A stretch of DNA of 64,000 nucleotides, taken from Candidatus Zixiibacteriota bacterium. GTDB lineage: Bacteria; Zixibacteria; MSB-5A5; DSPP01. The stretch lies in assembly GCA_022614805.1 (NCBI GenBank), contig JAKEHY010000021.1:1-64000 (forward strand), given 5' to 3'. The position numbers were made by a program, and so were the translations under genes. Each line of letters starts with the position of its first letter. Positions within the stretch are counted from its first letter, which is position 1. Positions 26,250-46,500 of the stretch are shown in pieces. Below the pieces are notes generated by a model, which was not told the origin of the DNA, made no database searches, and saw only the letters and a program-made list of their open reading frames with translations.

Positions 26250-28108
26250 TGCGCAAACTGACCGGGTCGTTTCTCATAATATTGACGGCACTTTTGGTTT
26301 GGCAGTTTTCGACCTTTAACGTTTTGCAGGATGACGCCTTCATCTCCTTTCGCTACGTCCGTAATTTCCTGGACGGCCTCGGGCTGGTCTTCAACATCGG
26401 GGAGCGGGTGGAGGGGTATAGCAATTTTCTCTGGATTATCCTTCTGGCCTTTTTGGCCAAGCTCGGGCTCCCCTTGATTGAAACCGCCCGGTCGATCGGC
26501 ATTCTGGCGGCCATTGGAACCCTCGGGCTCTGCACTTACGCCGCCCGAAACTACTATCCCCAAAGGGGCTGGCTGTGGATAGCTGCGGCCCCGTTTTTGC
26601 TGGCCGCCAACGGCGCCTTGGCTTACTGGGCGGGCTCCGGGCTGGAGACCAGCCTCTTCACTTTCCTGGCTGCGGCGGCAGCGGTAACCTACTTTGCCCG
26701 ACCGAATCATTCCCTTCTTCTTCTCGCTTTAGCTACCCTGACCCGACCCGAAGGGGGGCTTTTGGCCTTCCTTTTTGGAATAAGCGGAATACTCCTCAAA
26801 CAGAAAAGCTGGAAAGCCACGCTGACTTTTTGGGGGGGGCTGGCTTTGTTGCTTCTCCCCTTTGCGGTTTTCAAATGGGTGTACTACGGCTCGCTCCTCC
26901 CGAATCCTTTTTACGCCAAGACCGGATTTTCCACCGAATACCTGCAAGGCGGACTGGAGTATTTTGGGTTGTTTCTGAAACACTACGGGGGGTATGGTTT
27001 ATTCCTGCTGCTCCCCCTGCTTCTCTGGAAAAAACTGTCGCCGTTCTCCCGCTTCTCCCTTTTGGTTTTCCTCGGCTACACCCTGTACCTGATTGCCATC
27101 GGCGGCGATGTACTCAAAGCCCACCGTTTCTTCGTACCCATTCTCCTTCTCCTTTACCTGCCGCTGACGGACGGCCTGCAAAAGCTTATGGAAAAGCGGC
27201 CCCGGCAACGACTCGTTTTTGCGGCGGCGGTGTTCCTCGTCGGCCTGCTTTCCTACCGGCTCCCCAAAAGTTATCTCGATGCGGCGGCTTTTGCGGAAAG
27301 GGGACTGGTAGCGAAGATGGGAAACCTGGGGCGGCTTTTCGTGCGGCACGACTACGCCAAAAGTTTCGCCGCCTCGACCATCGGCGCATTGGCCTACTAT
27401 GCGGGGAACCGGCGGGTCATCGACATGCTGGGACTGACGGAACGGGAAGTCGCCCGGAATCCCGAAAAAATCGAGGGAATCGTTTCCAGCTGGAAGGAAA
27501 GGCATTTCAATGCCCGGCACGTCCTTTCCCAAAAACCGGAGGTGATTCTCTTTTCCACCGAGCTGAAACCCTCTTCGCCGGCCGAACGGGCCTTGTTTCT
27601 TTATCCCGAATTTCGACGGAACTACCGGCTGGAGTACCTGTTCGGCGACGGGCATCTCTCCATTTTTTACCGAAAATTCAAAGATTACGGGGAGGTGACC
27701 GGCCCCGACCAGCCCGCCCGCTTCGTCAATCTCTTGAACGACGGCTTGAATTTGACCAACGTGGATAATGCCAGGGCGGTTTCAATGCTGTACGAAGTCA
27801 TTTCGAGCGGAGGAGCGGACTGCCCGGCTTTAAATTTGATGACGGGGTACCTTTTTTCCCTGGCGGGGCAGCCGGAGTCCTGCGAGACCTATTTGCGAAA
27901 GGGACTGGCCATGGACGGCGGCGGTCCCCTCGGCACGTGGTACTATTGCGCCTTTCTGTATGAACGGAAGCGGTACGCCGAAGCGGTCCAACTGCTTTCG
28001 CCAATGGTCGAGGCGCACCCCACAGCCGAAGCCTTTCTGGAATCACGCGGCATTTTGCGTCCCACCCAAAAGACCGCTTTCCCCCCTCCGGCAACCCTCT
28101 TTCCGTGA
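26249..28108 (+). CDS. GT-C type membrane glycosyltransferase, paralog 3
   Basis: 619 residues, third member of the tandem family and the most divergent in the middle ('STEYLQGGLEYFGLFLKHYGGYGLFLLLPLLLW'). It keeps 'NVLQDDAFISFRYVRNFLDGLGLVFNIGERVEGYSNFLW' and the conserved segment at 320-460 ('AASTIGALAYYAGNRRVIDMLGLTEREVARNPEKIEG', 'ALFLYPEFRRNYRLEYLFG'). The TPR-like tail is present ('CPALNLMTGYLFSLAGQPESCETYLRKGLAMDGG'). The last 20 residues are Pro/Thr-rich. It overlaps paralog 2 (TAATG) and ends the operon, followed by an imperfect hairpin (28123-28148). Confidence 0.8.
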   Translation: MRKLTGSFLIILTALLVWQFSTFNVLQDDAFISFRYVRNFLDGLGLVFNIGERVEGYSNFLWIILLAFLAKLGLPLIETARSIGILAAIGTLGLCTYAARNYYPQRGWLWIAAAPFLLAANGALAYWAGSGLETSLFTFLAAAAAVTYFARPNHSLLLLALATLTRPEGGLLAFLFGISGILLKQKSWKATLTFWGGLALLLLPFAVFKWVYYGSLLPNPFYAKTGFSTEYLQGGLEYFGLFLKHYGGYGLFLLLPLLLWKKLSPFSRFSLLVFLGYTLYLIAIGGDVLKAHRFFVPILLLLYLPLTDGLQKLMEKRPRQRLVFAAAVFLVGLLSYRLPKSYLDAAAFAERGLVAKMGNLGRLFVRHDYAKSFAASTIGALAYYAGNRRVIDMLGLTEREVARNPEKIEGIVSSWKERHFNARHVLSQKPEVILFSTELKPSSPAERALFLYPEFRRNYRLEYLFGDGHLSIFYRKFKDYGEVTGPDQPARFVNLLNDGLNLTNVDNARAVSMLYEVISSGGADCPALNLMTGYLFSLAGQPESCETYLRKGLAMDGGGPLGTWYYCAFLYERKRYAEAVQLLSPMVEAHPTAEAFLESRGILRPTQKTAFPPPATLFP

Positions 28109-28189: not shown

Positions 28190-28263
28190 GCGGGAATAGC
28201 TCAGCTGGCTAGAGCGTCACCTTGCCAAGGTGAATGTCGCGGGTTCGAATCCCGTTTCCCGCT
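28190..28263 (+). tRNA. tRNA-Gly (anticodon GCC)
   Basis: A 74-nt cloverleaf: acceptor GCGGGAA pairs with TTCCCGC, D-arm GCTCAGCTGGCTAGAGC, anticodon stem CACCT/AGGTG enclosing TGCCA with anticodon GCC, and T-arm with GGTTCGAATCC. The discriminator base is T and CCA is not encoded. No integrase or attachment-site repeat is seen beside it. Confidence 0.95.
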
Positions 28264-28463: not shown

Positions 28464-30944
28464 ATGGCCCCCTTGCCTAAGCGCACTTCGTTCATTCTTT
28501 TTGTTGATTTCCTTCTTTTCGTCCTCTCTGTGTGCGGGGTTCACCGCGCCACCCAGCGGGCCAATGTTCCTGCGGTTTTTGCTGGCCAAAACGGGCCGGT
28601 CGTGGTAAAAAGCGTTTCCTCTACGACGGGTGAAACCGGGCTTCGACCAAAAGACACCGTGCTTTCGGTAAACGGACAGCCGGTCGCGACTCCGAGAGAC
28701 ATTGAATTCGTTCTGGACGGCCTTCCCATCTCCGATACCGCATCCTTTTCGGTACGACGCGGCTCCTCCGTCGAAACGGTTTTCTCGCGGCTGAAACCGT
28801 TTTACGCCCGGGAGTACTTCGCCATTCAGCTTTCAGTCGGCTCCCTTTTCTTCATCCTCGGCCTTTTGGTTTTAGTCAAAAGGCCGGGGGATGAAGCCGC
28901 CCACGTTTTCCACTGGGCCTCCGTGGCCGTTGCCCTGCTCATAATGATTACGTCAAACCGGTATCCCGGCAAACTGCCCTTCGTAAGCCGGATTTTGGAC
29001 ATCACCTACTGCTCCGCCGGCGCCTTCGCGCCGGCCCTGTTCCTCCACTTCAGCTTCATTTTTCCCCGCCCCAAATGGGAAAAGGCCAGAAAGCTGCTCC
29101 CCTACATGTATCTTCTGGCCGCCGGCCTGGCCGCCGGAACCATCTTCACCCTGTTCCGGGCCAACCTGCCGGTTTCGGTGGAACAGTTTCACCGCTTCGT
29201 TCAGGCCTACGCCGCCTCCCGAATTTTCTTCATCGCCTGCATCGCTTTTTCGCTGGTGAGTCTCGTCCATTCCTACCGGACGGCACCCGAGGAGTCGGAG
29301 CGCCGCAAGCTCCGCTGGGTGATGCTCGGGCTCAACCTGGGGCCGCCCATCTTTGTGGCCTGGCAGCTGCCGATTCTTTTAGGGACGTCCCGCTGGGTGC
29401 GGGAGGAGTACATGCACATCGCTTTGTCCCTCGTGCCGATAACTTTCGCCATTTCCATCATTCGCTACCGGTTGATGAACATCGACCCCATCTTCCGCCG
29501 CAGCACCATCTACACCATCGTTTTGGTGGTTTTGTTGGCCCTTTACGCTTTAATCGTCGGAGCGGCGGCGAGAATCACCGAAACGTTCTCCCTGATTTCC
29601 GTTCTGGCCCCCAGCGGGGCGGCTTTTTTGGTCGCCCTGCTTTTCGAACCGGTGCGCAGGGTGGTGCAGCGGTTCGTCGACCGCTCCTTTTTCCGGGTGC
29701 AGTTCGATTTCCGCCAGGCAGAGCGCCGCTTTGTGGATGAAATCAAACGCTCCGTGAACATACCGGAACTGGCGGATATGATTCTTTTCCGGCTGGAGGA
29801 GATTTTGCCCGTCCTTCGGCTCGGTTTTTTCTCCCTGGAAAAGCCCGGCCCCCGGTTGCATCTTCTGGCACACCGGAACCTGGAGCGGCTGCAGACGCAC
29901 GGCATTCATTTGGACCCGGAACGGCTGAAAGCTCTTTCGGCACTTCCTTTGGCTTTGGAAGAGCATCTGGAACCGGGGGCCGCCTTCGAGCAGGTGGAGC
30001 CGGAGACTTTGGGCCGCTGGGGAATCGCCCTGGTTTTCCCGGTTTTGTCCAAGGATTCGGAGCTTTTGGGCTTCCTGGCTCTGGGGCCCAAAAAGTCCGG
30101 CACTCGTTTCAGCCTTGAGGAAGTTGAGTTGTTGACGACCGTTGCGACCCAGGCCGGCTTGGCGATGGAGCGAATCAATTTGCAGCAAAAGCTGCTTTTG
30201 GAGCAGGCGGAAGCCCGCCGGCTGGAGGAGTTGAACCGGTTGAAGTCCTACTTCGTTTCGAGCGTCTCCCACGATTTGAAAACCCCCTTGACCTCCATCA
30301 AAATGTTCGCCGAAATCCTCCGCTCGAAAAAGGGGCTCGCCCCGGCGGAAAGCGAGGAATATCTGGAAATCATCGAGGGGGAAAGCGAAAGGCTGGCCCG
30401 GCTCATCAACAACGTTTTGGATTTTGCCCGGGTGGAGCAGGGGGTGAAGGAGTATCATTTCACCGAATTCGACGTGAACGAGGGAGTCGAGCGGGTTTTG
30501 CGCGCGCTCGCCTACCAGTTCAAGATGGAAGGGTGCGGGCTGGAGACCCGCCTGTCTCTGGAAAGGCTGGTCGTGCCGGCCGACCCGGACGCTTTTTTTG
30601 AAGCGGTCGAAAATCTCTTGTCCAACGCCCTCAAATATTCGCTCGAGGAAAAAAAGGTGACCGTCTCCACCTTCCGTTCCGACCGCCGGGCCGCCGTCCG
30701 GGTGGAGGACTGCGGCATCGGGATTTCGGCCGAGGATTTGCCCCACATCTTCGAACCCTTTTTCCGCGGCAAAAACGAGCGGGCCCAGGAGGCCGGGGGG
30801 GCCGGGCTGGGGCTGGCCCTGGTCAAGCACATGGTTGAACTGCACGGGGGGAAAATCGAGGTCGAGAGCGCCCCCGGTCGGGGAAGCACATTCACCCTGT
30901 TTTTTCCGCTGGAGGAGATGGATGAAACGAATCCTGATCGTTGA
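28464..30944 (+). CDS. Membrane sensor histidine kinase with PDZ, multi-helix and GAF domains
   Basis: 826 residues. After an N-terminal helix (about 9-28) there is a PDZ-like domain (40-105; 'SSTTGETGLRPKDTVLSVNGQPVATPRDIEFVLDGL'), then about eight membrane helices (116-400), a GAF domain (410-575), a HisKA domain with phosphoacceptor His603 in 'SVSHDLKTPLTSI', and a HATPase with the N-box 'ENLLSNALKYS' (from Glu716), 'DCGIGIS' and 'GAGLGLALVKH'. PDZ domains in such kinases may sense misfolded envelope proteins. It overlaps the next gene by 23 nt, so its likely partners are the two regulators that follow. Confidence 0.9.
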   Translation: MAPLPKRTSFILFVDFLLFVLSVCGVHRATQRANVPAVFAGQNGPVVVKSVSSTTGETGLRPKDTVLSVNGQPVATPRDIEFVLDGLPISDTASFSVRRGSSVETVFSRLKPFYAREYFAIQLSVGSLFFILGLLVLVKRPGDEAAHVFHWASVAVALLIMITSNRYPGKLPFVSRILDITYCSAGAFAPALFLHFSFIFPRPKWEKARKLLPYMYLLAAGLAAGTIFTLFRANLPVSVEQFHRFVQAYAASRIFFIACIAFSLVSLVHSYRTAPEESERRKLRWVMLGLNLGPPIFVAWQLPILLGTSRWVREEYMHIALSLVPITFAISIIRYRLMNIDPIFRRSTIYTIVLVVLLALYALIVGAAARITETFSLISVLAPSGAAFLVALLFEPVRRVVQRFVDRSFFRVQFDFRQAERRFVDEIKRSVNIPELADMILFRLEEILPVLRLGFFSLEKPGPRLHLLAHRNLERLQTHGIHLDPERLKALSALPLALEEHLEPGAAFEQVEPETLGRWGIALVFPVLSKDSELLGFLALGPKKSGTRFSLEEVELLTTVATQAGLAMERINLQQKLLLEQAEARRLEELNRLKSYFVSSVSHDLKTPLTSIKMFAEILRSKKGLAPAESEEYLEIIEGESERLARLINNVLDFARVEQGVKEYHFTEFDVNEGVERVLRALAYQFKMEGCGLETRLSLERLVVPADPDAFFEAVENLLSNALKYSLEEKKVTVSTFRSDRRAAVRVEDCGIGISAEDLPHIFEPFFRGKNERAQEAGGAGLGLALVKHMVELHGGKIEVESAPGRGSTFTLFFPLEEMDETNPDR

Positions 30945-32058
30945 AGACGACGCCGCCATCCGGAAAGGCCTGGCAGCCGCCCTGCAGGAGGAACAGTACG
31001 AGGTGTTGACGGCCAGAGACGGCGAGGAGGGATACGAAACGGCCCGGAGGGAAAAGCCGGATGCCATCATACTGGACCTTATGCTTCCCAAAAAAAACGG
31101 GCAGGACGTCTGCCGCGACCTGCGAAAGGAGGGGGACAACGTCCCGATTCTGATGCTGACCGCCCACAGCCGGGCCAGCGATATAGCCGGAGGGCTGGAG
31201 CTGGGGGCCGACGACTACCTGACCAAGCCGTTTGACGTGCGGGTGTTTCTGGCTAAAATCAAAGTCCTTTTGAAACACAAAGTTGAACTTCAGAAAGCCG
31301 CCGACCGGGCCGAACGCCTTTCCGGCGATATGGAGGAAGCCCGTCGGATTCAAGAAAGCCTTTTTCCCAAAAAGTTGCCCGCTACCTCCGGCTGGGAATT
31401 CGCCGGCCTCTGCCGCCCGGCGCGCTCCGTGGGGGGAGATTACTACGATATTTTTGAGGTAGCTCCCGGCAAAGTCCTATTTGCTCTCGGAGACGTCTCC
31501 GGAAAGGGTTTGGGCCCGTCCCTTCTTATGTCCAGCGTGCACACGGCCATCCGCACCCGCGCAGCCAGTGCCTGGGGTGAACCCTTGAAGTTGATTACCG
31601 AACTGAACCGCCACCTTTTGGCTTCGACGCCGCCGGAAACCTTCGTCACTCTGTTTTTGGGTGTTCTTGACCTTTCGTCCGGGCGCCTGCTGTACGTAAA
31701 TTGCGCCCACCCGCCTCCCATTCTGATGCGCAGCGAGAGCTGGGAGCCGGCCAGACTGACCGAAGGAGGGCTGATTCTGGGAATTCTGGAGGGTCATGAA
31801 TACAGGCAGGGGGATTACAGAATAAACCCCGGAGACGTTCTGGTGCTGTTCAGCGACGGAGTGACGGAAGCCGCCAACCGGCAGGATGAAATGTTCGAAG
31901 AAAAAGGGCTTTTGTCCCTGCTCGATAAGGTGCGGGGATTGGAAGCCGGCGCCGTCTTGGAGCGCACGCTTGCCGCCGTGGATGGTTTTGCCGCTCAAGC
32001 GGAGCAGGCCGACGACATTTCACTGGTGGTGATTCGCCGCAAAGGCCCGGGGTTGTGA
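30922..32058 (+). CDS. Response regulator with PP2C (RsbU/SpoIIE-type) phosphatase output
   Basis: 378 residues. I start at the ATG at 30922, preceded by GGAGGAG inside the kinase gene; the reading frame upstream of it has no receiver similarity. The receiver (1-115) has the acidic pair 'VEDD', phosphoacceptor Asp52 in 'ILDLMLPKKNG' and Lys in 'LTKPFD'. A short coiled coil ('AADRAERLSGDMEEARRIQESLFPK') leads to a PP2C domain (about 165-375) with 'SVGGDYYDIFE', 'LGDVSGKGLGPSLLMS', 'LFSDGVTEAANRQ' and 'QADDISLVVIRR'. Such proteins dephosphorylate an anti-sigma-factor antagonist, but no STAS partner is seen nearby. Confidence 0.88.
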   Translation: MKRILIVEDDAAIRKGLAAALQEEQYEVLTARDGEEGYETARREKPDAIILDLMLPKKNGQDVCRDLRKEGDNVPILMLTAHSRASDIAGGLELGADDYLTKPFDVRVFLAKIKVLLKHKVELQKAADRAERLSGDMEEARRIQESLFPKKLPATSGWEFAGLCRPARSVGGDYYDIFEVAPGKVLFALGDVSGKGLGPSLLMSSVHTAIRTRAASAWGEPLKLITELNRHLLASTPPETFVTLFLGVLDLSSGRLLYVNCAHPPPILMRSESWEPARLTEGGLILGILEGHEYRQGDYRINPGDVLVLFSDGVTEAANRQDEMFEEKGLLSLLDKVRGLEAGAVLERTLAAVDGFAAQAEQADDISLVVIRRKGPGL

Positions 32059-32175
32059 AGGGAACAGGCATTCAATGGCCGGACGCCGGGCCGGGAACCG
32101 GGACAGCCGGCTGCCTCCGGCGCCGATTCAGGTTGCGACGTCCCATTCAAATCATCACTTTCGGGAGGCACGGGT

Positions 32176-32856
32176 ATGAAGCGTATCCTAATCATTGAAG
32201 ACGACGCGGCCATCCGCAAGGGGCTTACCGCCGCCCTGCAGGATGAGCATTACGAAGTGTTGACGGCCGGAGACGGCGAGGAGGGATACCAGACCGCGCG
32301 GAGGGAAAAGCCGGATGCCATCATTCTGGACCTTATGCTCCCCAAAAAAAACGGACAGGACGTCTGCCGGGAACTCCGGAAGGAGGGGATTTTTACCCCC
32401 ATTCTGATGCTGACCAGCAAAAAACAGGAGATGGACAAGGTTCTGGGGCTGGAGCTGGGGGCCGACGACTACGTGACCAAGCCCTTCGGCATCCGCGAGC
32501 TTTTGGCCCGCATCAAGGCCCTTTTGCGCCGAAAGGTGGAAATCGTCACGGAGGTCGAAGAGTATTCCTTCGGCAGCGTGCAGGTCGATTTCAAGAAGCT
32601 GGAGGCCTCCAAAAACGGCAAACCGCTCAAGCTCACCGCCAAGGAGTTCGAGATTTTGAAATTTCTCGTTTCGCACGAGCGGGAGGTGGTGCGGCGGGAG
32701 GTGCTTTTGGACAAGGTCTGGGGGTATGAATCCTTCCCCACCACCCGCACGGTGGACACCTTTATCGCCTCGCTGCGGAAAAAAATCGAGAACGACCCCT
32801 CCCGCCCCAAGCATTTGCTCACCGTCCCCACGGTCGGCTACAAGTTCGTGAAGTAA
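32176..32856 (+). CDS. OmpR/PhoB-type response regulator
   Basis: 226 residues. The receiver (1-115) has Asp52 and is nearly identical over the first 60 residues to the receiver of the preceding gene. The winged-helix DNA-binding domain (about 127-225) holds 'LTAKEFEILKFLVSHEREVVRREVLLDKVWGYESFPTTRTVDTFIASLRKKIENDPSRPKHLLTVPTVGYKF', the full PhoB/OmpR pattern. Regulators of this type bind direct repeats with 11-bp phase; such a repeat lies immediately downstream at 32959-32976 and again at 36938-36955. The 117-nt gap before the gene shows no clear promoter; a ribosome site (GGGAGG) is present. Confidence 0.93.
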   Translation: MKRILIIEDDAAIRKGLTAALQDEHYEVLTAGDGEEGYQTARREKPDAIILDLMLPKKNGQDVCRELRKEGIFTPILMLTSKKQEMDKVLGLELGADDYVTKPFGIRELLARIKALLRRKVEIVTEVEEYSFGSVQVDFKKLEASKNGKPLKLTAKEFEILKFLVSHEREVVRREVLLDKVWGYESFPTTRTVDTFIASLRKKIENDPSRPKHLLTVPTVGYKFVK

Positions 32857-32937: not shown

Positions 32938-32958
32938 ACGCAAATCTTTTGCGTCTTC
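32938..32958 (+). terminator. Possible hairpin terminator after the regulator
   Basis: ACGCAAA-TCT-TTTGCGT (seven pairs) followed by CTTCTTT. It sits just before the promoter box at 32956 and would end the kinase transcript. Confidence 0.4.
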
Positions 32959-33000
32959 TTTACAATTCCATAACAACTCTTCCGCCGAACGCTCGATACT
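32956..33000 (+). promoter_or_regulatory. Promoter with conserved 11-bp direct-repeat box (copy 1)
   Basis: The box TTCTTTACAATTCCATAAC continues AACTCTT. It contains TTTACAA (32959-32965) and ATAACAA (32970-32976), an 11-bp direct repeat. The second half overlaps a -35-like AACAAC (32972-32977), with GATACT (32995-33000) 17 nt downstream. The same box and spacing recur at 36934-36979. PhoB-type regulators bind such repeats; the adjacent regulator is the natural candidate. Confidence 0.6.
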
Positions 33001-33029: not shown

Positions 33030-33707
33030 ATGAAAACACAAAGGACACTTAAAATCATCCGGTTCTGTCTTCCGGGGGTTCTGGCGGCAGCGTGGTGGGG
33101 CACGACCCCCCACGCCCAGGAAAAACCAGCGGCGGTACTTCTTTGGCAAAACGGCGGAATCGGGCAGAAAGAAGAACTTACAGATGGTTTAAATTCTTCT
33201 CAAAGACCAAAAGTTCAGAATCTGAAATCGGAAAATAAGGCTTTAGCTTTGTCTCTTTTGGGCTCATTAATTCCTGCTACTGTTGGTGTCACCTCCGCCA
33301 TAGCTATGCCAGCGGGTGTGGCTCCGGTACCTGGTGCCGAATCAGACGCATGGAAGAATGTTGGATTGCTCGTTGGATACAGCGGACTTATTGTCGGGCC
33401 GTCGCTCGGGTACTTTTATGCGGGCCAGGTCAGGCGCGGTCTGGTCGGTGTAGGAATTAGGGTCGCTTCAGGGGCCGCCCTTGTACGTGGATTGAAAATC
33501 TACAATGATGGTGGCAGTGACTTTGGCACAGCGCTCTACTCGCTTGGATCGGTATTTCTGCTTTACTCCATCATCGATGATATCACTTCGGTAAAAGGAG
33601 TGGTTCAGAAACGTAACCGCTCCCTGCAGGAAAAAACCGTAACCATCACTCCGACCTACTTTGCCCAGCACGGTGCGCCGGGCCTGAAAGTGCAACTGCA
33701 ATTCTAA
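33030..33707 (+). CDS. Exported protein of a local tandem family, copy 1
   Basis: 225 residues with signal peptide ('FCLPGVLAAAWWGTTPHAQ', about 12-30). The mature part has 'NLKSENKALALSLLGSLIP' with a hydrophobic stretch, then a glycine-rich 'GPSLGYFYAGQVRRGL', further hydrophobic segments and a C-terminal 'KRNRSLQEKTVTITPTYFAQHGAPGLKVQLQF' region that ends in Phe. I do not recognise the family. The order 'KS..KA...S...P / GYFYG...RG' resembles small DUF5683-like envelope proteins, weakly. GAAAGGAGCAGAAAA precedes the ATG. Three relatives follow in the same unit. Likely an inner- or outer-membrane protein. Confidence 0.7.
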   Translation: MKTQRTLKIIRFCLPGVLAAAWWGTTPHAQEKPAAVLLWQNGGIGQKEELTDGLNSSQRPKVQNLKSENKALALSLLGSLIPATVGVTSAIAMPAGVAPVPGAESDAWKNVGLLVGYSGLIVGPSLGYFYAGQVRRGLVGVGIRVASGAALVRGLKIYNDGGSDFGTALYSLGSVFLLYSIIDDITSVKGVVQKRNRSLQEKTVTITPTYFAQHGAPGLKVQLQF

Positions 33708-33724
33708 TGGGAAGGAGCAGAAAA

Positions 33725-34318
33725 ATGAAAAGAACACTTAAAATCATCCAGTTCTGCCTTCCGGGAGTTCTGGCGGCAGCGTGGTGGGGCACAACCCTCC
33801 ACGCCCAGGAAAAACCAACCCTGTTTCTTTGGCAAAATGGCGGAATTGGGCAGAAAGAGCAGCGCGCAGATAGTGTAAACATCTTTCAAAAAATGGATGC
33901 CTTGAATCTGAAGTCTGAAACAAAGGCATTCAACTGGTCTCTTTGGGGCACGCTTGCCCCATCAGCTACACTTATCCTTTTGCCCGTTGGGCTCTGGGTG
34001 GGCCCTTCCATGGGATATTTCTACGGAGGTATGTCAGGAAGGGGATGGATAGGAATTGGAATCAGAACCGCTGGAATGGCCGCAGCGGTACCTGCCTTTA
34101 TTTCGGGTTGGGACGGTCTGAACCCTGATGGCGCGGCTCAGGCTCTTGCTACAGGAGGAGCGCTTCTGTTTTGGGGTTCCGCGATCTACGATATCGCCAC
34201 GGTTAAAAGCGCCGTGCGTAAGCACAATCGCTCGTTGCAGGAAAAAGCCCTGACCATCACCCCGGCCTATTTCGCCCAGCACGGCGCGCCGGGCCTGAAG
34301 GTGCAAGTGCAATTTTAA
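33725..34318 (+). CDS. Exported protein of a local tandem family, copy 2
   Basis: 197 residues, started at the ATG at 33725 with GGGAAGGAGCAGAAAA before it; the ATG at 33707 would encode only the ribosome site. It shares the leader ('LKIIQFCLPGVLAAAWWGTT') almost base for base with copies 1 and 3, 'NLKSETKAFNWSLWGTLAP', 'GPSMGYFYGGMSGRGWIGIGIR' and the C-terminal 'KHNRSLQEKALTITPAYFAQHGAPGLKVQVQF'. It is shorter than copy 1 in the segment between the SLxG and GYFYGG motifs. It is part of the run 33030-36903. No function known. Confidence 0.7.
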   Translation: MKRTLKIIQFCLPGVLAAAWWGTTLHAQEKPTLFLWQNGGIGQKEQRADSVNIFQKMDALNLKSETKAFNWSLWGTLAPSATLILLPVGLWVGPSMGYFYGGMSGRGWIGIGIRTAGMAAAVPAFISGWDGLNPDGAAQALATGGALLFWGSAIYDIATVKSAVRKHNRSLQEKALTITPAYFAQHGAPGLKVQVQF

Positions 34319-34334
34319 CGGAAAGGAGCAAAAA

Positions 34335-34994
34335 ATGAAAACGCAAAGCATGCTTAAAATCATCCGCTTCTGCCTTCCGGGAGTTCTGGCGGCAGCGTGG
34401 TGGGGCACAACCCTCCACGCCCAGGAAAAACCAACCATACTCCTTTGGCATAACGGCGAACTGGGGCAGAAGCAGCAATTGTTGGACTCCTCTTTTTCAA
34501 CACCAAATAGGATTATTCCCGACCCGAAATCGGAAGGGACGGCTGTAGCCTTGTCTCTTGGCGGTACGATTGTGCCAATCACACTTGGTTTGGTCGTTGC
34601 GACTCAAGGCCCCAACGACGCGGGTATCGTTCCAGGAGTTGTATTAATGGGCAGCGGGGTGGTGTTCGGTCCCTCACTGGGATACTTCTACGGAGGGCGG
34701 CCGGGTCGCGGCCTGTCTGGAATCGGAATCCGGCTCGGCTTATCTGCGGCCACACTTGGCGCGACGTACATAGCCGGGACTTCGACTGATGGCTGGGATG
34801 GGCTGGATAGGGCGGCCGTCGCTTTCTTTATCGGTTCCGGTGTCGTCGCCGCGGCAGCCGTTGCGGACGTCCTCCTGGTACCGAAGGCCGTCCGCAAGCA
34901 CAACCGTTCCCTGCAGGAAAAGGCCCTGACCATCGCGCCGGCCTATTTCGCCCAGCACGGCGCGCCGGGCGTCAAAGTGCAAGTGCAATTTTAA
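34335..34994 (+). CDS. Exported protein of a local tandem family, copy 3
   Basis: 219 residues, start after GGAAAGGAGCAAAAA. It has the common leader ('LKIIRFCLPGVLAAAWWGTT'), 'DPKSEGTAVALSLGGTIVP', 'GPSLGYFYGGRPGRGLSGIGIRLG' and the C-terminus 'KHNRSLQEKALTIAPAYFAQHGAPGVKVQVQF'. Two hydrophobic stretches flank the glycine motif. The GYFYGGRPGRGL segment is also in the fusion protein at 35734. Intervening residues vary strongly between copies while the two ends stay fixed, consistent with selection on the ends or with gene conversion. Same operon as its neighbours. Confidence 0.7.
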   Translation: MKTQSMLKIIRFCLPGVLAAAWWGTTLHAQEKPTILLWHNGELGQKQQLLDSSFSTPNRIIPDPKSEGTAVALSLGGTIVPITLGLVVATQGPNDAGIVPGVVLMGSGVVFGPSLGYFYGGRPGRGLSGIGIRLGLSAATLGATYIAGTSTDGWDGLDRAAVAFFIGSGVVAAAAVADVLLVPKAVRKHNRSLQEKALTIAPAYFAQHGAPGVKVQVQF

Positions 34995-35011
34995 TGGAAT
35001 GGGGAAGAACA

Positions 35012-35683
35012 GTGAAAACCCAAAGAAAACTATTAGAAGGACTCATTCCAATTTTGATGGGGTTATTGCTGTCCGCCTGTGCCGAGAAGCCCACCATTTC
35101 GAAAACTCCCTTGATAAGGGAGGTCATAGTAACACCCAACGCTCTCACCCTCTACGAAGGTCGCTATGGTCACCTGCGCGGAATGGAGGAGGATGGGTAT
35201 GGTGTCAGTCTTGTCTGGACAAGCAGCGATTACGCGGTGGCAGATGTTTGGGGCCCGGACGACGGCTGGGCGGTTTGGAATACTTGGTATAATTGCTGCG
35301 GCGAAACTGCCACGGTGAAAGGGCTCAAGCCGGGGACTGCTCGTATTTACGGCTCTTGGCAGTATACTGCGCCCGAGGAGTTGACCGGGCACTGTGACGT
35401 TACCGTCCTGCCGGTGACGGCTCGAAGAATCGACATCTCGCCCGATACGCTCACTGTAGCGGCAGATAGCTTCAGGTGGATATCTATCTTTGTATATGAC
35501 AGCGTAGGCGTTGAACTGCGGCGCACGCTTTACTTGCGCGCGTTGGACCCGACCGTTGCTACAATTAGCGCATCTGAGTTGTTGGATTTAACAACAGTTT
35601 ACGGACACAATCGAGGGCAGACGTATGTCTTTGCATATACCGATGGAGGGCTAAGTGACTCCTCGCTGGTCATTGTGGAGTAA
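35012..35683 (+). CDS. Lipoprotein with Ig-like (BIG2-type) repeats
   Basis: 223 residues from the GTG at 35012 with GGGGAAGAAC before it; the upstream ATG at 34994 overlaps the previous stop but has no ribosome site and lengthens the signal. The lipobox is LLSAC (Cys23). Two Ig-like modules are seen: 'REVIVTPNALTLYEGRYGHLRG...VSLVWTSSDYAVADVWG...ATVKGLKPGTARIYG' and 'RRIDISPDTLTVAADSFRWISIFVYDSVG...LDPTVATISAS'. BIG2-like domains mediate adhesion or surface assembly. It sits between paralog copies 3 and 4, so it likely belongs to the same envelope function. Confidence 0.75.
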   Translation: MKTQRKLLEGLIPILMGLLLSACAEKPTISKTPLIREVIVTPNALTLYEGRYGHLRGMEEDGYGVSLVWTSSDYAVADVWGPDDGWAVWNTWYNCCGETATVKGLKPGTARIYGSWQYTAPEELTGHCDVTVLPVTARRIDISPDTLTVAADSFRWISIFVYDSVGVELRRTLYLRALDPTVATISASELLDLTTVYGHNRGQTYVFAYTDGGLSDSSLVIVE

Positions 35684-35733
35684 GTCCTGCATCGCTCAAG
35701 CCGACAGGGAGTCGCGAGAAAGGAGAAGACCCG

Positions 35734-36903
35734 ATGAAAGCTTGTAAACGCCCGCTTTCGGCGCTTTTGCTTGCGGCTGTTTTTTGGAATGCGCCCTCGT
35801 CCAAGGGACAGGAGCAGACGAGGCCCAAACATTTCGCGTTGAAGGCCGCCCCTCTTCCAGAGTGCAAATCGTTTCTAATAGCGGAATTCGGTACAGGCTA
35901 TCGGTTAAGTCAAAGAGCCATCCGCACCGCCGACACCCTCTTCCTTGACGACACCATCCCCAGTGTCATCTCCCAATCCCTCGCCCCCGACCGCCGCTTT
36001 TACTCCAGCGCGGATTTTGGATGGATGGTAAACGTAAGCCGGCGTTCCGCGGTCGGCGCCTCCCTTTTTGCCGGCTTTCCCGGCACGGGCGTTCGAGTCG
36101 CATTGAAACCGAGATACCGCCATTGGTTCGGGTCCACCACCAGCCTGGATTTGTCTCCAGGGATATTTCTGCACGTTCAGGACGACCTCTTTTTGCATAA
36201 GTTTCCCTCCTTCCTCGGGGAGGTGGGACTGAATTTCTCCAACCGGCTTGCCCTGACCGGGCGGGTTGAGGTGCTGCGCCATATCCCCGGCGTCAGCCTT
36301 ACGCAAAAAGAAGAAACGGCCGTTCTTTTCTACGGCGGCGTCCGGCTCGGTTCCCTCGGAGCGCTTTGGCCCCAACCGAATTCTTTGGAAAACAAAGCCG
36401 CTTTACTTTCCATCTTAGGCACGGCCGTTCCTTCCGCCATCGGCGGCGCCTACGCCCTGGTCTGCCGGGGGAGCGGAAGCTGCGCCCTGGATGAACACTG
36501 GCCCATCGTGGTAGTTGCGGCAGGCAGCGGAATTCTGTTCGGCCCCTCACTGGGTTATTTCTACGGCGGACGGCCCGGCCGCGGCCTGGGCGGAATCGGA
36601 GTCCGGCTGGCTATAGCCGGAGGAGCTGCGGCGGTAGCCGGAATAATTTGGTCGGGCAGTTCGGCGGAAGAAGAAGATTGCGGGCTTTTCGGCCCTTGCT
36701 TCCCGTTCATACCTCCGGCAAGCATACTTATCCTTGCCGCCGGCGGAGTTATGGTGGTGGCCCACTCGATATACGATATCGTCCAAGTGAAAGAGACCGT
36801 CCAAAAACACAACCGTTCCCGGCAGGAAAAAGCGCTGACGGTTGCGCCGGCCTACTTTGCCCAGCACGGCGCGCCGGGCCTCAAGCTTCAAGCTCGGTTT
36901 TAA
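35734..36903 (+). CDS. Fusion of an outer-membrane-like domain with the local tandem-family module (copy 4)
   Basis: 389 residues. Signal peptide ('LSALLLAAVFWNAPSSKGQ'), then a beta-rich domain (about 35-212; 'LIAEFGTGYRLSQRAI', 'FYSSADFGWMVNVSRRSAVGASLFAGF', 'VALKPRYRHWFG', 'VGLNFSNRLALTGRVEVLR') of outer-membrane barrel type. Residues 218-389 are the tandem-family module: 'SLENKAALLSILGTAVPS', 'FGPSLGYFYGGRPGRGLGGIGVRL', 'QKHNRSRQEKALTVAPAYFAQHGAPGLKLQARF'. The fusion ties this family to the outer membrane. AGAAAGGAGAAGACCC precedes the ATG. Confidence 0.7.
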   Translation: MKACKRPLSALLLAAVFWNAPSSKGQEQTRPKHFALKAAPLPECKSFLIAEFGTGYRLSQRAIRTADTLFLDDTIPSVISQSLAPDRRFYSSADFGWMVNVSRRSAVGASLFAGFPGTGVRVALKPRYRHWFGSTTSLDLSPGIFLHVQDDLFLHKFPSFLGEVGLNFSNRLALTGRVEVLRHIPGVSLTQKEETAVLFYGGVRLGSLGALWPQPNSLENKAALLSILGTAVPSAIGGAYALVCRGSGSCALDEHWPIVVVAAGSGILFGPSLGYFYGGRPGRGLGGIGVRLAIAGGAAAVAGIIWSGSSAEEEDCGLFGPCFPFIPPASILILAAGGVMVVAHSIYDIVQVKETVQKHNRSRQEKALTVAPAYFAQHGAPGLKLQARF

Positions 36904-36915
36904 GAGGAGGAATCG

Positions 36916-36981
36916 ATGACAGAAGTTTTACATTTCTTCTACAATTCCATGACAACTCTTTTCCCTAAATTTCCATATTAA
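36916..36981 (+). CDS. Possible 21-residue small ORF overlapping a promoter box
   Basis: ATG with GAGGAGG upstream, reading MTEVLHFFYNSMTTLFPKFPY then TAA. It lies 12 nt after the fusion gene. The nucleotide block it covers is better explained as the promoter box shared with 32956, and copy 1 of that box has no start codon, so translation is doubtful. Confidence 0.2.
   Translation: MTEVLHFFYNSMTTLFPKFPY
36934..36979 (+). promoter_or_regulatory. Promoter with conserved 11-bp direct-repeat box (copy 2)
   Basis: TTCTTCTACAATTCCATGAC continues AACTCTT, matching copy 1 except for three bases. TCTACAA (36938-36944) and ATGACAA (36949-36955) are 11 bp apart. The -35-like GACAAC (36951-36956) is followed after 17 nt by CATATT (36974-36979). 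The DNA between box and -10 differs from copy 1, so the box is selected rather than copied with its flanks. Confidence 0.6.
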
Positions 36982-37006: not shown

Positions 37007-37930
37007 ATGAACACTGATAAACATTCGCTTGTAGCGTGGCTGCTTCTGGCCGTGCTGGCTTTTTCGTGCGGGAAAAAGAAGGCAACCGAGCCGGAACAGA
37101 AGACCCCCGCCATCACCCCGCCCGTGCAATTGACTACAACCGGCGGCTACGACCCCGCCGCCTCGCCGGACGGCCAATGGGTGGTTTTCAACGGGGGAGG
37201 CGTCATTGCGAAAATCAAACCGGATGGAACCGGACTGGATACCATTACGGATGCCGGCGGCGGCGACCCGGACTGGTCAGACTGGACGCGAAAGGGGAAT
37301 CTTATTGTCATCGGAACCGTCGCCACGCTCGATGCCACCACGGGCGAAATCCAACTGGTGGCGTATGACGATTGCTATGAGAGCAACCCCGTCTGGTCTC
37401 CCGACGGGAGTCAAATTGCCATAACCTCAAGATGTCCGGATCGGATTGTGCTCATATCCTATCCCGGCGGGGATACTTCGAGCGTGCCGTGCGACGACCC
37501 GGACGGCGGCGGTTGCGACGGAGAAGGCCCTACCTGGTCGGGGGATGGAAACTGGCTCGCCTTTGAGGATGGCCTGCAAATTCTCAAAGTGCCGAAATCC
37601 GGCGACACGGCACAAGTGGTATATGACGGGTCCAAAGATGACAAGGACGTCTCCCAGCCGGCCTGGTCGCCGGACGGCAAGTGGATTGCCTTTGTGCGGG
37701 AGGATTCCACGGCTACGAGCTTTTTTGATTCGGTGTGGAATTTCTTCTCCTATGGCCATATCTGGGTAGCGGATGCGCGGGGGGAATCTTTCGGCCTCTG
37801 GCAGGTTACCACCGGCCCCTATTCAGATTTTGACCCGGCCTGGTCTCCCGATTCCCGCTTCATTTACTTTTCGTCCAACCTGCCCGGCCAACATCGGCGC
37901 GAAATATGGAAGGTGGGTTTCAGTTTTTAG
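37007..37930 (+). CDS. TolB-like beta-propeller lipoprotein
   Basis: 307 residues. Lipobox AFSC (Cys21) follows a hydrophobic signal. The mature protein holds at least five PD40/TolB-type repeats, each with 'P.WSPDG..IAF' or similar ('YDPAASPDGQWVVFNGGG', 'SNPVWSPDGSQIAITSRC', 'EGPTWSGDGNWLAFEDG', 'SQPAWSPDGKWIAFVRED', 'FDPAWSPDSRFIYFSSN'). These propellers usually bind proteins in the periplasm or sense ligands. First gene of the unit downstream of the second conserved promoter; ribosome site AAAGGAGGAAAAA. Confidence 0.85.
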   Translation: MNTDKHSLVAWLLLAVLAFSCGKKKATEPEQKTPAITPPVQLTTTGGYDPAASPDGQWVVFNGGGVIAKIKPDGTGLDTITDAGGGDPDWSDWTRKGNLIVIGTVATLDATTGEIQLVAYDDCYESNPVWSPDGSQIAITSRCPDRIVLISYPGGDTSSVPCDDPDGGGCDGEGPTWSGDGNWLAFEDGLQILKVPKSGDTAQVVYDGSKDDKDVSQPAWSPDGKWIAFVREDSTATSFFDSVWNFFSYGHIWVADARGESFGLWQVTTGPYSDFDPAWSPDSRFIYFSSNLPGQHRREIWKVGFSF

Positions 37931-37946: not shown

Positions 37947-38993
37947 ATGAAAACGACGCCCGGCGAAAGAATCTCGTCCCCTACCTTAAAAGAGCTGCAC
38001 CAGCTAAAGCCGGCCTATAACTGGATAATCCTGCTTTTCTTCGGCCTCTGGGGGCTGTCCGGGTTTTTCACGCTGCAAATGCCCAACCTCTGGCTGCGGC
38101 TTCCGGGGTATCTCCTTTCCGGAATTGTCCTGCATGCCCTGGGGATTATGATGCACGAAGGGGTGCATTCCAATCTTTCAAAAAACCGGAGCGTCAACCG
38201 CTGGCTGGGATTTATTTGCGGCGTTCCCACGCTTTTGGGGCTTTCGGCCTACAAGGCCGTTCACCTGCCCCATCACCGCTGGGAGCGGATGGTGGAAGAT
38301 CCGGATGAATTCGAAAACCTAACCGGCAAGCCACCAGTCCTCAAAGTAATTTTAGTTCTCTGGTTTTTCATAGGAGCCTACTTCTATCTTTTCCACATAG
38401 CTTTTACCGGAATGAAACTCGCCAGCGCCAAGGAAAAAAAGAAGATACCCCAGGAATATGCGCTTTTAATCACACTTATGGCACCGGCGTTTTACTTCAT
38501 CCCTTTTGAAATTTTGGGCCAGGTCTGGCTTTTCCCCATTCTCGTTACCGCCCAGTTGGCTCAAGTGCGGGGACTGGCCGAACATGCCTTTACCGCCGGA
38601 GACAGTTTGCTGACCGCCACCCGCACCGTAACCAGCAACAGGGTGACGAGCTTTTTTATGTGCAACCTGAACTACCATCTTGAGCATCACATTTATCCCG
38701 GTGTTCCCTGGTACAACCTTCCCCGTCTGCACCGGCTGTTCTTGGAAGATTACGGTAAAGTGGGGGTCTCCGTTTACACCTCCTATGCGGTTTATCTATG
38801 GCAGGTCTTTAAGGCCCTTTTCGCCAAAGTTTCCAACCCTTACGCCCAGACCGGCCCCCCCTCCGGCTACTATCGCCACTATATGCCGGTTTTGGCTGGT
38901 ATCGAGAACCCGGCTTACGGGAAAGTCGATGCAGAACAAATTTTGAAGGATGCCTTTCAACCCACAACCCAAAACAAAAGAGGTTTAAAATGA
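37947..38993 (+). CDS. Fatty-acid desaturase / hydroxylase family membrane protein
   Basis: 348 residues from the ATG at 37947 (GAAAGGAGAAAAA before it). Three His boxes are intact: H70-x3-H74 ('HEGVH'), H106-x2-HH110 ('HLPHH') and H244-x2-HH248 ('HLEHH'), the di-iron ligands of membrane desaturases. Four or more hydrophobic segments are placed as usual around the boxes. It likely introduces a double bond or hydroxyl into an acyl chain or a terpenoid; substrate unknown. Lying under the conserved promoter with envelope lipoproteins, it fits membrane-lipid adjustment. Its stop overlaps the start of a short ORF (ATGA). Confidence 0.88.
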   Translation: MKTTPGERISSPTLKELHQLKPAYNWIILLFFGLWGLSGFFTLQMPNLWLRLPGYLLSGIVLHALGIMMHEGVHSNLSKNRSVNRWLGFICGVPTLLGLSAYKAVHLPHHRWERMVEDPDEFENLTGKPPVLKVILVLWFFIGAYFYLFHIAFTGMKLASAKEKKKIPQEYALLITLMAPAFYFIPFEILGQVWLFPILVTAQLAQVRGLAEHAFTAGDSLLTATRTVTSNRVTSFFMCNLNYHLEHHIYPGVPWYNLPRLHRLFLEDYGKVGVSVYTSYAVYLWQVFKALFAKVSNPYAQTGPPSGYYRHYMPVLAGIENPAYGKVDAEQILKDAFQPTTQNKRGLK

Positions 38994-39046
38994 AACGACC
39001 TATGCAGGTCACAATCACAACCCAAACCAAAGGAGGTCTAGAATGA
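38990..39046 (+). CDS. Short 18-codon ORF made by a 53-nt tandem duplication
   Basis: Encodes MKRPMQVTITTQTKGGLE. The ATG overlaps the desaturase stop and its TGA overlaps the next ATG, in ATGA style on both sides. The ribosome-binding region and first codons (AAACGACCTATGCA) of the next gene are repeated 53 nt upstream, creating this ORF. It could couple translation of the desaturase and the lipoprotein, or be a duplication scar. Confidence 0.35.
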   Translation: MKRPMQVTITTQTKGGLE

Positions 39047-40266
39047 AACGACCTATGCAACTCACCATCATGGCCAGCGTGGTTGGCCTTATGGCCTTCG
39101 GCTGCCAGAAAAAAGGGAATTTGACCGGCGCCCCGACCGCTCCGAAGGCCGGTCCGGCCTTGGGGAAACCGGCCCTTCAGCCGCCCCCCGCCCCGCTGGT
39201 CACCGTCAATTTCGGCGGCAGCGCGCAGGAATTCTGGCCCTTCACCGGCGCCAATTTTTCCGGTGCGCCCCAGGACCCGGTCAACTTGATTTTTGTGGGG
39301 CATTCCGACCCGCGCGCCATCCGGGCGGCTTTGCTGTCTTTGGACGGGGACCGCGCCGCCTTCGGCTTTCCCAACCTCTCCCCGTTCAACGACACATGGA
39401 CGGATGCGATTGGGGACGTGCAAACCGGCTACGGCACGGAAAGCGGCTGGGTGGGGGGCGCCGTCCAGCTGGCCTGCGGCCCGTATGGCCCCGTCCGCTT
39501 CCACCTGCGTCTGTTTGACATCGGCGGCTGGACGTTGGGGAACGTCCACTTTGAGGTGCTCATTCCCGGCACCACCGACCATCAGGTTTTGAACTGGGAA
39601 CTGGCGGAACAATTGGTGGCGGCAGACTTTGTGCGCAGCGGCCTTTTGGACCCGAGCGTGCCTCTCATCCAGACGGATGCCATAAATCCGTCCCCCTTTC
39701 GGGAAATTCCGGCCGTCATCTACAACGGCCTTCCAGAGGACCTGAAGGCCCTCATCGGGGGCCCGGCCGGAAGCGTGGAAAACCCGGTACCGATTGCCAC
39801 CGACGGGAAAGCCACCCTTTTGAATCTGGCCGGAAGCATCGAGGGTCAACCGGTGGTCGCGAAACAGGATTTTGTCATCCAGTTTGACCAGGTCATTCCC
39901 AAGCCCTTCTGCGCCTCCGGGCCGTTCGACTTCATTTACGTCAAAGGGCCGGTGCGTTTAAGCCAGACGGTGGTGATGAGCCCATCGGGCACCTTCACCA
40001 GCCAGTTCGAGGCGCAGGGGAACCTGGAACTGACGCCCGTGGACCCCAGCACCAGCCCACCTACGCCAATCGGTGAAACTTACCAAGCCGTAGTCAACGA
40101 GCAGCACAAAAGCGTGGTGACCAACGAGCTGACTTTGGTTTCCAGCTTTCAGATGCGCACGGAAATCCCGCCCACCGGCCCTTTCCGCGGACAGCTTATA
40201 GCCGAACTAAGCGTCGGGCCGGGGGAATCCAGCCGCTATTCGTTGGAGGTAACGTGCCTGCCGTAG
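39043..40266 (+). CDS. Lipoprotein of unknown function with LssY-like region
   Basis: 407 residues. Lipobox AFGC (Cys21), ribosome site AAAGGAGG. A Pro-rich linker (27-52) leads to a domain (about 60-200) with 'PQDPVNLIFVGHSDPRAIRAALLSLDGDR', 'ESGWVGGAVQLACGPYGPVRFHLRLFDIG' and 'WTLGNVHFEVLIPGTTDHQVLNWELAEQLVAADF', which resembles the LssY C-terminal domain often found in envelope-associated proteins; this is a weak match. The C-terminal part is beta-rich with no motif I know. Last gene before a strong terminator, third gene under the conserved promoter. Confidence 0.65.
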   Translation: MKRPMQLTIMASVVGLMAFGCQKKGNLTGAPTAPKAGPALGKPALQPPPAPLVTVNFGGSAQEFWPFTGANFSGAPQDPVNLIFVGHSDPRAIRAALLSLDGDRAAFGFPNLSPFNDTWTDAIGDVQTGYGTESGWVGGAVQLACGPYGPVRFHLRLFDIGGWTLGNVHFEVLIPGTTDHQVLNWELAEQLVAADFVRSGLLDPSVPLIQTDAINPSPFREIPAVIYNGLPEDLKALIGGPAGSVENPVPIATDGKATLLNLAGSIEGQPVVAKQDFVIQFDQVIPKPFCASGPFDFIYVKGPVRLSQTVVMSPSGTFTSQFEAQGNLELTPVDPSTSPPTPIGETYQAVVNEQHKSVVTNELTLVSSFQMRTEIPPTGPFRGQLIAELSVGPGESSRYSLEVTCLP

Positions 40267-40293
40267 CGTCCAGACCATAACGGTCACCAACCG

Positions 40294-40326
40294 AAAGAGG
40301 GGCCGAGGGGGCCCCTCTTTTTTTTC
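40294..40326 (+). terminator. Strong rho-independent terminator
   Basis: An 11-pair stem AAAGAGGGGCC / GGCCCCTCTTT closing a five-base loop, continuing into eight T. It ends the lipoprotein-desaturase unit. Confidence 0.85.
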
Positions 40327-40460: not shown

Positions 40461-40532
<72 letters not shown>

Positions 40533-40666
40533 CCAAAGAAATTGATTTATTTTGTGATTGAATGATTTAAAGATTTTTCAATCATTAAATCAGAAAATCA
40601 AAAAATCCCCGAATCAACTAAAGGTTGACTCGGTTTTTGCCGTGTATAACTTGGGGGGACAAAAAA

Positions 40667-43538: not shown

Positions 43539-46500
43539 ATGAGGAAACCAATCCTAACGGTAATATACCTTTGTTGCTTTTTGGTGGGTTTTGAATTGGC
43601 CTTTGCCGCAAACGCTCCAGTCAACGCAGAGAAAAAAAGGCAGGACAACCTGCGGGCTTTTAGAAAGGCGAAGGCGGTCGCCCTGCTTCAAGCATATCCC
43701 GGTGTAAAGTACAGGATAGATGATGAGAGAGGAGTTCCTCGAAGAATCAGCGGCAAACTGCAGCAAGGGCTGTCGAAGGGCGACGTCGTGCAGACCGTTT
43801 ATGAGTTTTTTGAAAAAAACCGGGAGTTGTATGGTTTGTCCGACCCAAGGTCAGAATTGAAAGTGACGAGAAATGAGAAAAACCAATTGGGAACGCTCGT
43901 TGTTCTCAAACAGCTTTATGGGAACGTGGAAGTTTGGAACACAATGTTAAAAGCGAATTTTGGACGGGATGGCAATTTATACGCCATTTACGGTTCCACT
44001 TACCCTGACATCGACCTTTCCACTGCGCCTTCCCTCGATTCTAATTCTGCTCTTGAAATCGTCATACGCGACTTGGAATTTCCGCCCGGTCTCGACTATG
44101 GATTGATTGAGCTCGAGCGATTCGGACGCCGCCAACCGAAGGGCCGGCCGCCACTAACTCGGTTGGCGATTTTCTCCCACCGGGGTAAGTACCACTTGGT
44201 TTGGGTTGTCCGGCTATTGGGGTATAAAACCGACAGTGACTGGGAGTATTTCATCGACGCCCACACGGGAGAAATTTTGGAAAAGCAGGACCTGATAATA
44301 CCTATCCGACCCGGCCCCAAACCAGAAAGGAAAACCCCTCTGATTCCTACTCCTAGACCAGGGGGACCAAGCCCCTTACCAAAAGAAATGCCCCGTCAAG
44401 AATTTCAAACTTCGGGCGATCTCATCCTGTTGTACCCAAAGGATTACCAGCAAGACCCGGCTGTCCAGCTTGACAGCGTCCAGGCTGGCCAGAAGGCCAG
44501 AGAAGATACCATGGTTAGGTCTGAACCAACTCTGCATCCTTCCGAAACTCAGGCTGCGGAAGATTGGCGGAAGGGCTCTCCGGACATAAAGGAAGCCGAA
44601 CCGGTTGAGGTAAAGTTGCAAATTCCGATGGATTCCCTCATAAAGCGAAAGATGCGCCAACCCGTTGAAAAAGCTGGAAAAAAGAAACAGGAAAAAACTG
44701 ACAGCCCGCAAACCAATGCAACTGCTGCTCCCGCTACCTTTGTAAACATTATGACCGAAGGTTTTGAGGGCTTCTTTCCAGAAGAAAGCCCGAACTGGAT
44801 TACTTTTGACAACGATGTTCCACCGGAATTTAATGGGGAAATTTATTGGGATGATGACAACTTTTTGGCTTGGTCTGGCAGTTGGAGTGGCTGGTGTGCC
44901 GGAGGCGGGTCAAGCGGCGTGCCGGGTTCTAACAACTATGCAAACAATATGAATTCTTGGATGGTTTACGGTCCATTCAGCCTGACGGATGCCACCGACG
45001 CCGAATTAAACTTTCGGTTTTGGCTTAAATCGGAATACCAAGCTGACTTCGTCTGGTGGGGCGCTTCGCCGAATTGCACCACGGTCTATTTTTCGGGAGC
45101 AACCGGAAACTCTTCGACGGCACCCGGAAATGTGAATGGCTGGTTATATGGAAGGCTTCCTCTCGACAGCGTGCCCCTTCCAAGCGGCGGTTATTTGAAT
45201 TTGCTTGGTCGGTCGTACTGCTGCATAGCATTCGCATTCACCAGCAATGGGTCGATTGTTGATAAAGGTGCTTTCATTGATGAAATCATTTTAAAGAAAG
45301 ATGTTCCTGCCGGAGGAACTCCAAACCTGTATGCTGGTTACATCCCTCCCGATTGGGATGGTCCAATTGTGGTTTCCTGCGTCTCCGGAACTAAAACCCA
45401 ATCCCTGCCACGCGTGAACCAAACAGCTTACATCGATTGGGCAGTTAAGAACGATGGCTCGAGAGCGACCAGTACCGTAACCCTTTCCACCCTTATAGTG
45501 GATGGAGTGACAATTAGAAGGTACGGGCTGCTTCCTCCTCTAAATCCAGGTTCTACCATCTCTGTTCCTGATGTGCCATATGTATTTGCGACTCCCGGCT
45601 GGCACAGGGTTACGATCATACACGATTCTCTCAATTCGGAAGCCGAAGATTTTGAATTTGATAACCGATGGGATTATGATTTTGAGGTTACCCAAACCGG
45701 ACACAATGTTGGAACGGGATTTGGCGTTTTGGCGAATCCTCACGGCCACATAGATACGGAATGCGACCAAGGCACCTTCCGCTTGCGGGATTATACCCGG
45801 CGGGCAAACAATAACCCTCACTTTCATAACGGCCGGATGGTACCCTCCGCCTACATTCGGACCAAGCGCTGGGAAGCAGGTGCTGAAATTGATGATGGGG
45901 ACAACAACAACGAGTGGAACAGCGGTCAAACAGCTGCTTCTGTGGACGCCCACGTGTATGCCGGGTGGACGTACGATTATATGAACCAACCTTTTAAGTT
46001 AGACCGCAATGGGGTTGATGGGATTGGAGGAATCGTGATGCAGAATTTGGTTAACGATGACCGTCAAGGCACCGACGGAGCGGCCTTCCGATACCCTGAT
46101 TTGATGGCTGTTTACGCCCCCAGCGATTCGATGTGGTCCTTTGCTTCCGCGCTTGACGTAATCGCCCACGAGTGGGGCCACGGTATCACTCAATATGAAT
46201 CGAATTTGGGCATAAGCAGAGAGCCAGGAGCTTTGGCCGAATCTTTCGGAGATATGTTCGGTGTTAGCGTGGGGTTTGCCAACAACGACCCTGATTGGGA
46301 ATTAGGGGAAAACGTTTTCAGGTTGCGCGTTGGCCGGTTGCGCGACCTTTCCCACCCGCCGCGGGAAGGTGACCCCGATACCTATCGCGGACAATACTGG
46401 GTAAAGGTAAATCCGGACAGCTGTCCTACCCCCAGTTCCTCAAACGATTTTTGTGGCCGCCATACCAACAGCGGCGTACCCAACAAGATGTTCTATCTTT

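Follow-up and report, generated by a model that had tools for sequence, protein, structure and literature searches.

An unnamed DUF5683-like family of envelope proteins, expanded in tandem within a candidate two-component regulon of a Zixibacteria genome

What are tandem paralogous exported proteins with nearly constant ends and divergent middles, and does such a layout reflect a design for meeting varied partners at the cell surface? The question is raised by an array in the window analyzed here, a 64,000-nucleotide stretch from the 2.56 Mb genome assembly of Candidatus Zixiibacteriota bacterium (GCA_022614805.1, contig JAKEHY010000021.1). The array comprises P1 (33,030–33,707; 225 aa), P2 (33,725–34,318; 197 aa, with the shortest middle) and P3 (34,335–34,994; 219 aa), all on the forward strand and displaying the same architecture of signal peptide, linker, four-TM module and C-terminal hairpin. 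On the same strand follow a lipoprotein (35,012–35,683) and P4 (35,734–36,903; 389 aa), which combines a β-rich, barrel-like domain of about eight strands (residues about 1–208) with a C-terminal version of the module (about 211–389). All four proteins carry a GPSxGYFYxG core and an HNRSxQEK...YFAQHGAPG...F end, and similarity searches with P3 as the query recover P1, P2 and P4 with E-values of 3.5e-57, 1.2e-53 and 4.2e-33, respectively. Their homology is far above chance, as the preliminary description had claimed for three exported proteins of ~200 aa and the end of a fourth, although the fourth is a complete ORF of 389 aa, of which that end forms the C-terminal half. The almost identical leader ascribed to all of them is found in P1–P3 (87–91% amino acid identity), whereas the leader of P4 differs. 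A fifth, more distant paralog is present in contig C25 (38,131–38,679). The intervening lipoprotein has a lipobox (LLSAC) and its first codons (MKTQRKL) are similar to the P1–P3 leader; it possibly has two Ig-like domains, though the designation as Ig-like comes only from its appearance, together with one weak match in PHROG (0.005) and none in Pfam or NCBIfam. The assignment of P1–P4 as exported envelope proteins is supported.

P1–P4 belong to no family in Pfam, NCBIfam, PHROGs or PADLOC, none of which returned a significant match, in keeping with the initial impression of an unfamiliar family; the PADLOC and PHROG results likewise leave a status as known anti-phage defence or phage genes unsupported. 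A profile built from 11 members detected the family in 31 of the 132 genomes of the phylum Zixibacteria that were searched, and a scan of named genomes further recovered it from Balneolia, Salinivenus and Aminicenantes. Tandem sets occur in the genomes G006 (four copies), G033 (three), G086 (three) and G127 (two and one partial copy). In a phylogenetic tree P1–P4 form one clade (support 95/98); thus, the array arose by lineage-specific duplication.

Profile–profile comparisons with hhalign linked the family to a set of intermediates typified by the motif PGxxxHGAGHFYAGK (probability 99, E = 8.6e-18) and these, in turn, to DUF5683 (PF18935; probability 95, E = 5e-8), indicating a profile-level kinship through the intermediates, as compared to a probability of only 13.6% when the family and DUF5683 are aligned directly. 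Neither P1–P4 nor the 11 family members match the Pfam DUF5683 model above its curated cut-off, and the family has no Pfam match to it with a useful E-value. The family shares with DUF5683, including the DUF5683 proteins of this phylum, a layout of signal peptide, KSPxxALxxS helix, P-G/Y motif, late aspartate motif and C-terminal strand ending in phenylalanine. It differs in a long insertion that parts the conserved proline from GPxxGYFY, with the result that the contiguous PGxGQxYN motif of DUF5683 is absent. In our reading, the family is not a member of DUF5683 but a DUF5683-like family that carries an insertion. No functional paper on DUF5683 was found in the literature searched. By eye, the GxxGxxxY turn between two membrane helices also recalls the TM2 domain (PF05154); however, the Pfam TM2 model matches no family member tested and gave zero matches in 58 genomes of the class.

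The AlphaFold2 model of P3 (alignment of 14 sequences, mean pLDDT 77) predicts a signal helix and then a disordered linker, followed by four helices (67–91, 94–119, 123–150 and 154–197), whose pLDDT is mostly close to 90 or higher, and finally a C-terminal hairpin (198–217); the C-terminal module of P4 is predicted to adopt the same fold. Neither sequence nor fold searches against the PDB gave a significant match, and the fold therefore reveals no function. Assuming signal-peptide cleavage and four membrane-spanning helices, the basic residues next to helices 3 and 4 would lie on the predicted periplasmic side, which makes the topology uncertain. We did not adopt an interpretation of the terminal phenylalanine as an outer-membrane signal; in the model, a two-strand hairpin follows the helices.

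The N-terminal ~210 residues of P4 belong to a different, β-rich exported family: residues 1–208 are homologous to standalone exported proteins of ~220 aa found in 20 of 129 Zixibacteria genomes, including that of the window, and the term barrel for this region reflects its strand pattern and the family alignment, AlphaFold2 having given no model there. The standalone proteins end in a single hydrophobic helix, whereas P4 alone among the members of this barrel-like family carries the module; P4 is thus a fusion in which the module stands in the helix's place. Such a fusion sets the module physically beside a putative barrel-like envelope domain.

The near-identical ends are younger than the middles. 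Among P1–P3, differences at four-fold degenerate silent sites amount to 6/46 in the leaders and 8/38 in the C-termini, as compared to 31/43 in the core conserved at the amino acid level (leader versus core, p = 1e-8; C-terminus versus core, p = 6e-6; these pooled comparisons are not mutually independent, and the single pair P2–P3 gives p = 0.001). The core and middles, being saturated at silent sites, are old, while the ends are recent copies. Two homologous forward-strand blocks span the gene junctions, one at 33,573–33,861 (P1 3′ end, spacer and P2 leader; repeat families D1 and D2) and the other at 34,184–34,477 (P2 3′ end, spacer and P3 leader), each running for ~290 bp from the end of one gene into the leader of the next with sharp limits. 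Accordingly, we consider it probable that gene conversion or recombination in these junction blocks homogenized the ends. In the other arrays of the family the leaders are variable and the ends mostly saturated at silent sites: the C-termini of the G006, G033 and G127 arrays are conserved in amino acids with silent sites near saturation, though the G033 leader pair is also young (3/14 silent differences). As young ends are mostly missing from these arrays, the pattern is mainly a local one and not a design of the family.

This undercuts the earlier proposal that fixed ends and variable middles would suit surface components facing varied partners. A system of this kind, in which homologous junctions would allow the middles to be exchanged as cassettes so as to vary partner contacts, would accord with the homogenized blocks flanking each middle and with the strong divergence of the middles in length and sequence. 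However, the variation falls within the N-terminal linker and between the helices of what is predicted to be a membrane bundle, its core being conserved, the silent-site pattern is mostly local, and silent donor cassettes were not found, the assembly containing only five copies of the module, all with open frames; hence, we regard a cassette system as highly improbable.

As for the control of the array, a 33-bp element of three 11-bp direct repeats (32,948–32,980, forward strand) lies upstream of P1, followed by a −10-like GATACT (32,995–33,000), and is repeated downstream of P4 (36,927–36,959, forward strand) with a −10-like CATATT (36,974–36,979). Further copies at C17, C28 and C9 bring the total to five genomic sites: the 2.56 Mb hold exactly five copies at 0–1 mismatch and none at 2–3, a reversed control pattern gave one chance match in the genome, and a stricter version of the pattern is absent from 38 relatives. 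Across the five sites, identity at a shift of 11 is 0.62, against 0.11–0.37 at other shifts (0 of 20,000 column shuffles), and all five have a TA-rich −10-like stretch downstream. The sites closely precede genes for exported proteins or lipoproteins, although at C9 the first downstream ORF is ambiguous. Thus, the dedicated promoter of the preliminary description exists and extends further than proposed, to five units, and beyond the P1–P4 operon it serves genes for further exported or membrane proteins.

Direct repeats of 11 bp are a hallmark of the sites of OmpR/PhoB-type regulators, and here such repeats stand in tandem upstream of the −10 with a regulator of this family encoded nearby (32,176–32,856, forward strand; Response_reg and Trans_reg_C), ending 92 bp upstream of the first element. 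The arrangement resembles OmpR/PhoB-type regulons but differs from them in that the motif is specific to this genome and the targets are unnamed envelope genes. The adjacent regulator, a candidate binder of TNACAWTTCCRTRACAACTC, probably controls the element, to judge from this juxtaposition. Upstream of it on the same strand are a sensor histidine kinase (28,464–30,944; Pfam HisKA/HATPase/GAF, with a PDZ-like part and a multi-TM N-terminus recognized by eye) and a response regulator with a SpoIIE-type phosphatase output (30,925–32,058; Pfam). The two neighboring response regulators (30,925–32,856) have similar receivers but differ in output (a SpoIIE phosphatase in one, a winged helix in the other), and are apparently the products of a duplication. 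The kinase has no match at 1e-60 in the 19 relatives searched, its co-absence with the element from relatives being a pattern drawn from one genome having both. Pho boxes have a layout of 7+4 spaced repeats, which is approximated by repeats here such as CTGACAA-TTCC-GTGACAA, and the element could on that count be a local Pho box of a phosphate regulon. We hold this to be very unlikely indeed, as none of the five sites is near recognized transport or phosphatase genes and the sensor of the adjacent kinase is not PhoR-like.

The second unit in the window consists of three forward-strand genes, a PD40 β-propeller lipoprotein (37,007–37,930; Pfam PD40, 7e-28), a fatty-acid desaturase (37,947–38,993; Pfam FA_desaturase, 1.4e-41) and the lipoprotein lip39043 (39,043–40,266), homologs of which are neighbors of module genes in G095 and G127; the unit closes with a strong terminator (40,293–40,321, forward strand) of a 12-bp stem and a T run. 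Behind the C28 copy of the element are two tandem exported proteins (L120:3197–4224) with a conserved, Sm-like GRLVSxDLSQSHL stretch and a terminal T-I-E-C-K, a homolog of which adjoins the module in G095. Downstream of the C9 copy are two adjacent BNR/sortilin-type propeller proteins (L119:1380–5891), with a short unexplained ORF between them.

The desaturase suggests a lipid component to the system. A membrane-fluidity response to cold or lipid stress, in which a DesK-like multi-TM kinase senses the bilayer and drives the desaturase along with membrane-stabilizing 4-TM proteins, would explain why the desaturase lies behind the same element as the modules and why the fifth paralog in C25 directly adjoins a desaturase paralog. 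However, no desaturase homolog was seen near module genes in the other genomes inspected, and the kinase has GAF and PDZ-like parts, which are atypical of DesK; we therefore think such a response rather unlikely.

Evidence for the regulon also comes from other genomes. In G095, homologs of lip39043 (3.4e-116), the module, the C28 protein (C28b, 1e-4; 1e-8 in pairwise BLASTP) and the C17 lipoprotein (1e-66) occur together in a single cluster, and in G127 two modules are clustered with a lipoprotein related to that of G095, a lip39043 homolog (53% identity) and an OMP-like gene. The counterparts of the G095-clustered genes in the window's genome are distributed over four separate units, each behind a copy of the element. 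Because G095 played no part in the discovery of the motif, this agreement is informative, and we consider it likely that the five units form a real regulon. Upstream of the cluster with the lip39043 homolog in G095 (L126) we also observed CATAACAACT, as in the G000 element, which may be a trace of the motif. The linked gene set is found at only 3 of the ~25 module loci inspected, ~22 lacking it, and most module loci elsewhere stand alone in unrelated, widely varying surroundings. That P1–P4 might be ordinary tandem duplicates, functionally unlinked to the promoter, lipoproteins or regulator, is in line with their lineage-specific duplication and with the variability of the neighbors of single-copy modules; nevertheless, with an element common to five units and matching clusters in G095 and G127, we find it unlikely.

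The surroundings of the locus display further features. A tRNA-Gly (28,190–28,263) and a tRNA-Cys (40,461–40,535) exactly bracket the kinase–regulon block, but attachment repeats are absent and no integrase was recognized, and a tRNA-flanked island was rejected. Another tandem expansion (22,597–28,108) comprises three polytopic paralogs of ~610 aa with a shared FxVLQDDAFISFRY...NFLDGxGLVFN start, glycosyltransferase-like by eye and without a Pfam match. A secreted thermolysin-type (M4) metalloprotease with a CARDB-like domain is encoded at 43,539–46,910.

The best reading of the locus is a lineage-specific expansion of an unnamed family of envelope membrane proteins in a two-component regulon. 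We posit that, in response to an envelope signal, the membrane-bound kinase and the OmpR/PhoB-type regulator (28,464–32,856) probably activate promoters with three 11-bp repeats, two at this locus (32,948 and 36,927) and the other three at separate genomic sites. The first unit would then supply four versions of an exported protein with a cleaved signal peptide, a flexible linker, a four-helix bundle and a hairpin ending in phenylalanine, and the second unit a lipid desaturase along with two lipoproteins. In the membrane, the modules would probably form homo- or hetero-oligomeric platforms, with hairpin and linker holding the lipoproteins of the regulon. The paralogs would have arisen by tandem duplication within the lineage, with recombination between junction blocks maintaining the similarity of the leaders and of the C-termini but leaving the middles old and divergent. 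For this reading as a whole, from envelope regulon core and two-component switch to membrane platforms and junction recombination, we put the chances at about even. A biochemical role as membrane-embedded oligomers that carry or organize the regulon's lipoproteins is a tentative suggestion, possible rather than probable. More doubtful still is a novel envelope assembly whose genes are clustered in some Zixibacteria but scattered under common control in this genome; its DUF5683-like four-helix protein would anchor a set of unnamed lipoproteins, and the junction blocks would let paralogs exchange or gain middles while leader and docking hairpin stay constant.

Overall, the locus is more organized than first noted but belongs to a familiar type: a two-component envelope regulon that includes an unnamed DUF5683-like family. 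It also carries a warning that constant ends and a variable middle in tandem paralogs can reflect gene conversion and not selection for diversity. The regulon at this locus is testable, and the analysis ties the P1–P4 family to the DUF5683-like proteins, a large group that is functionally blank. For a phylum that lacks cultured models, the profile, motif and gene set provide a searchable handle on a widespread, unannotated envelope family.
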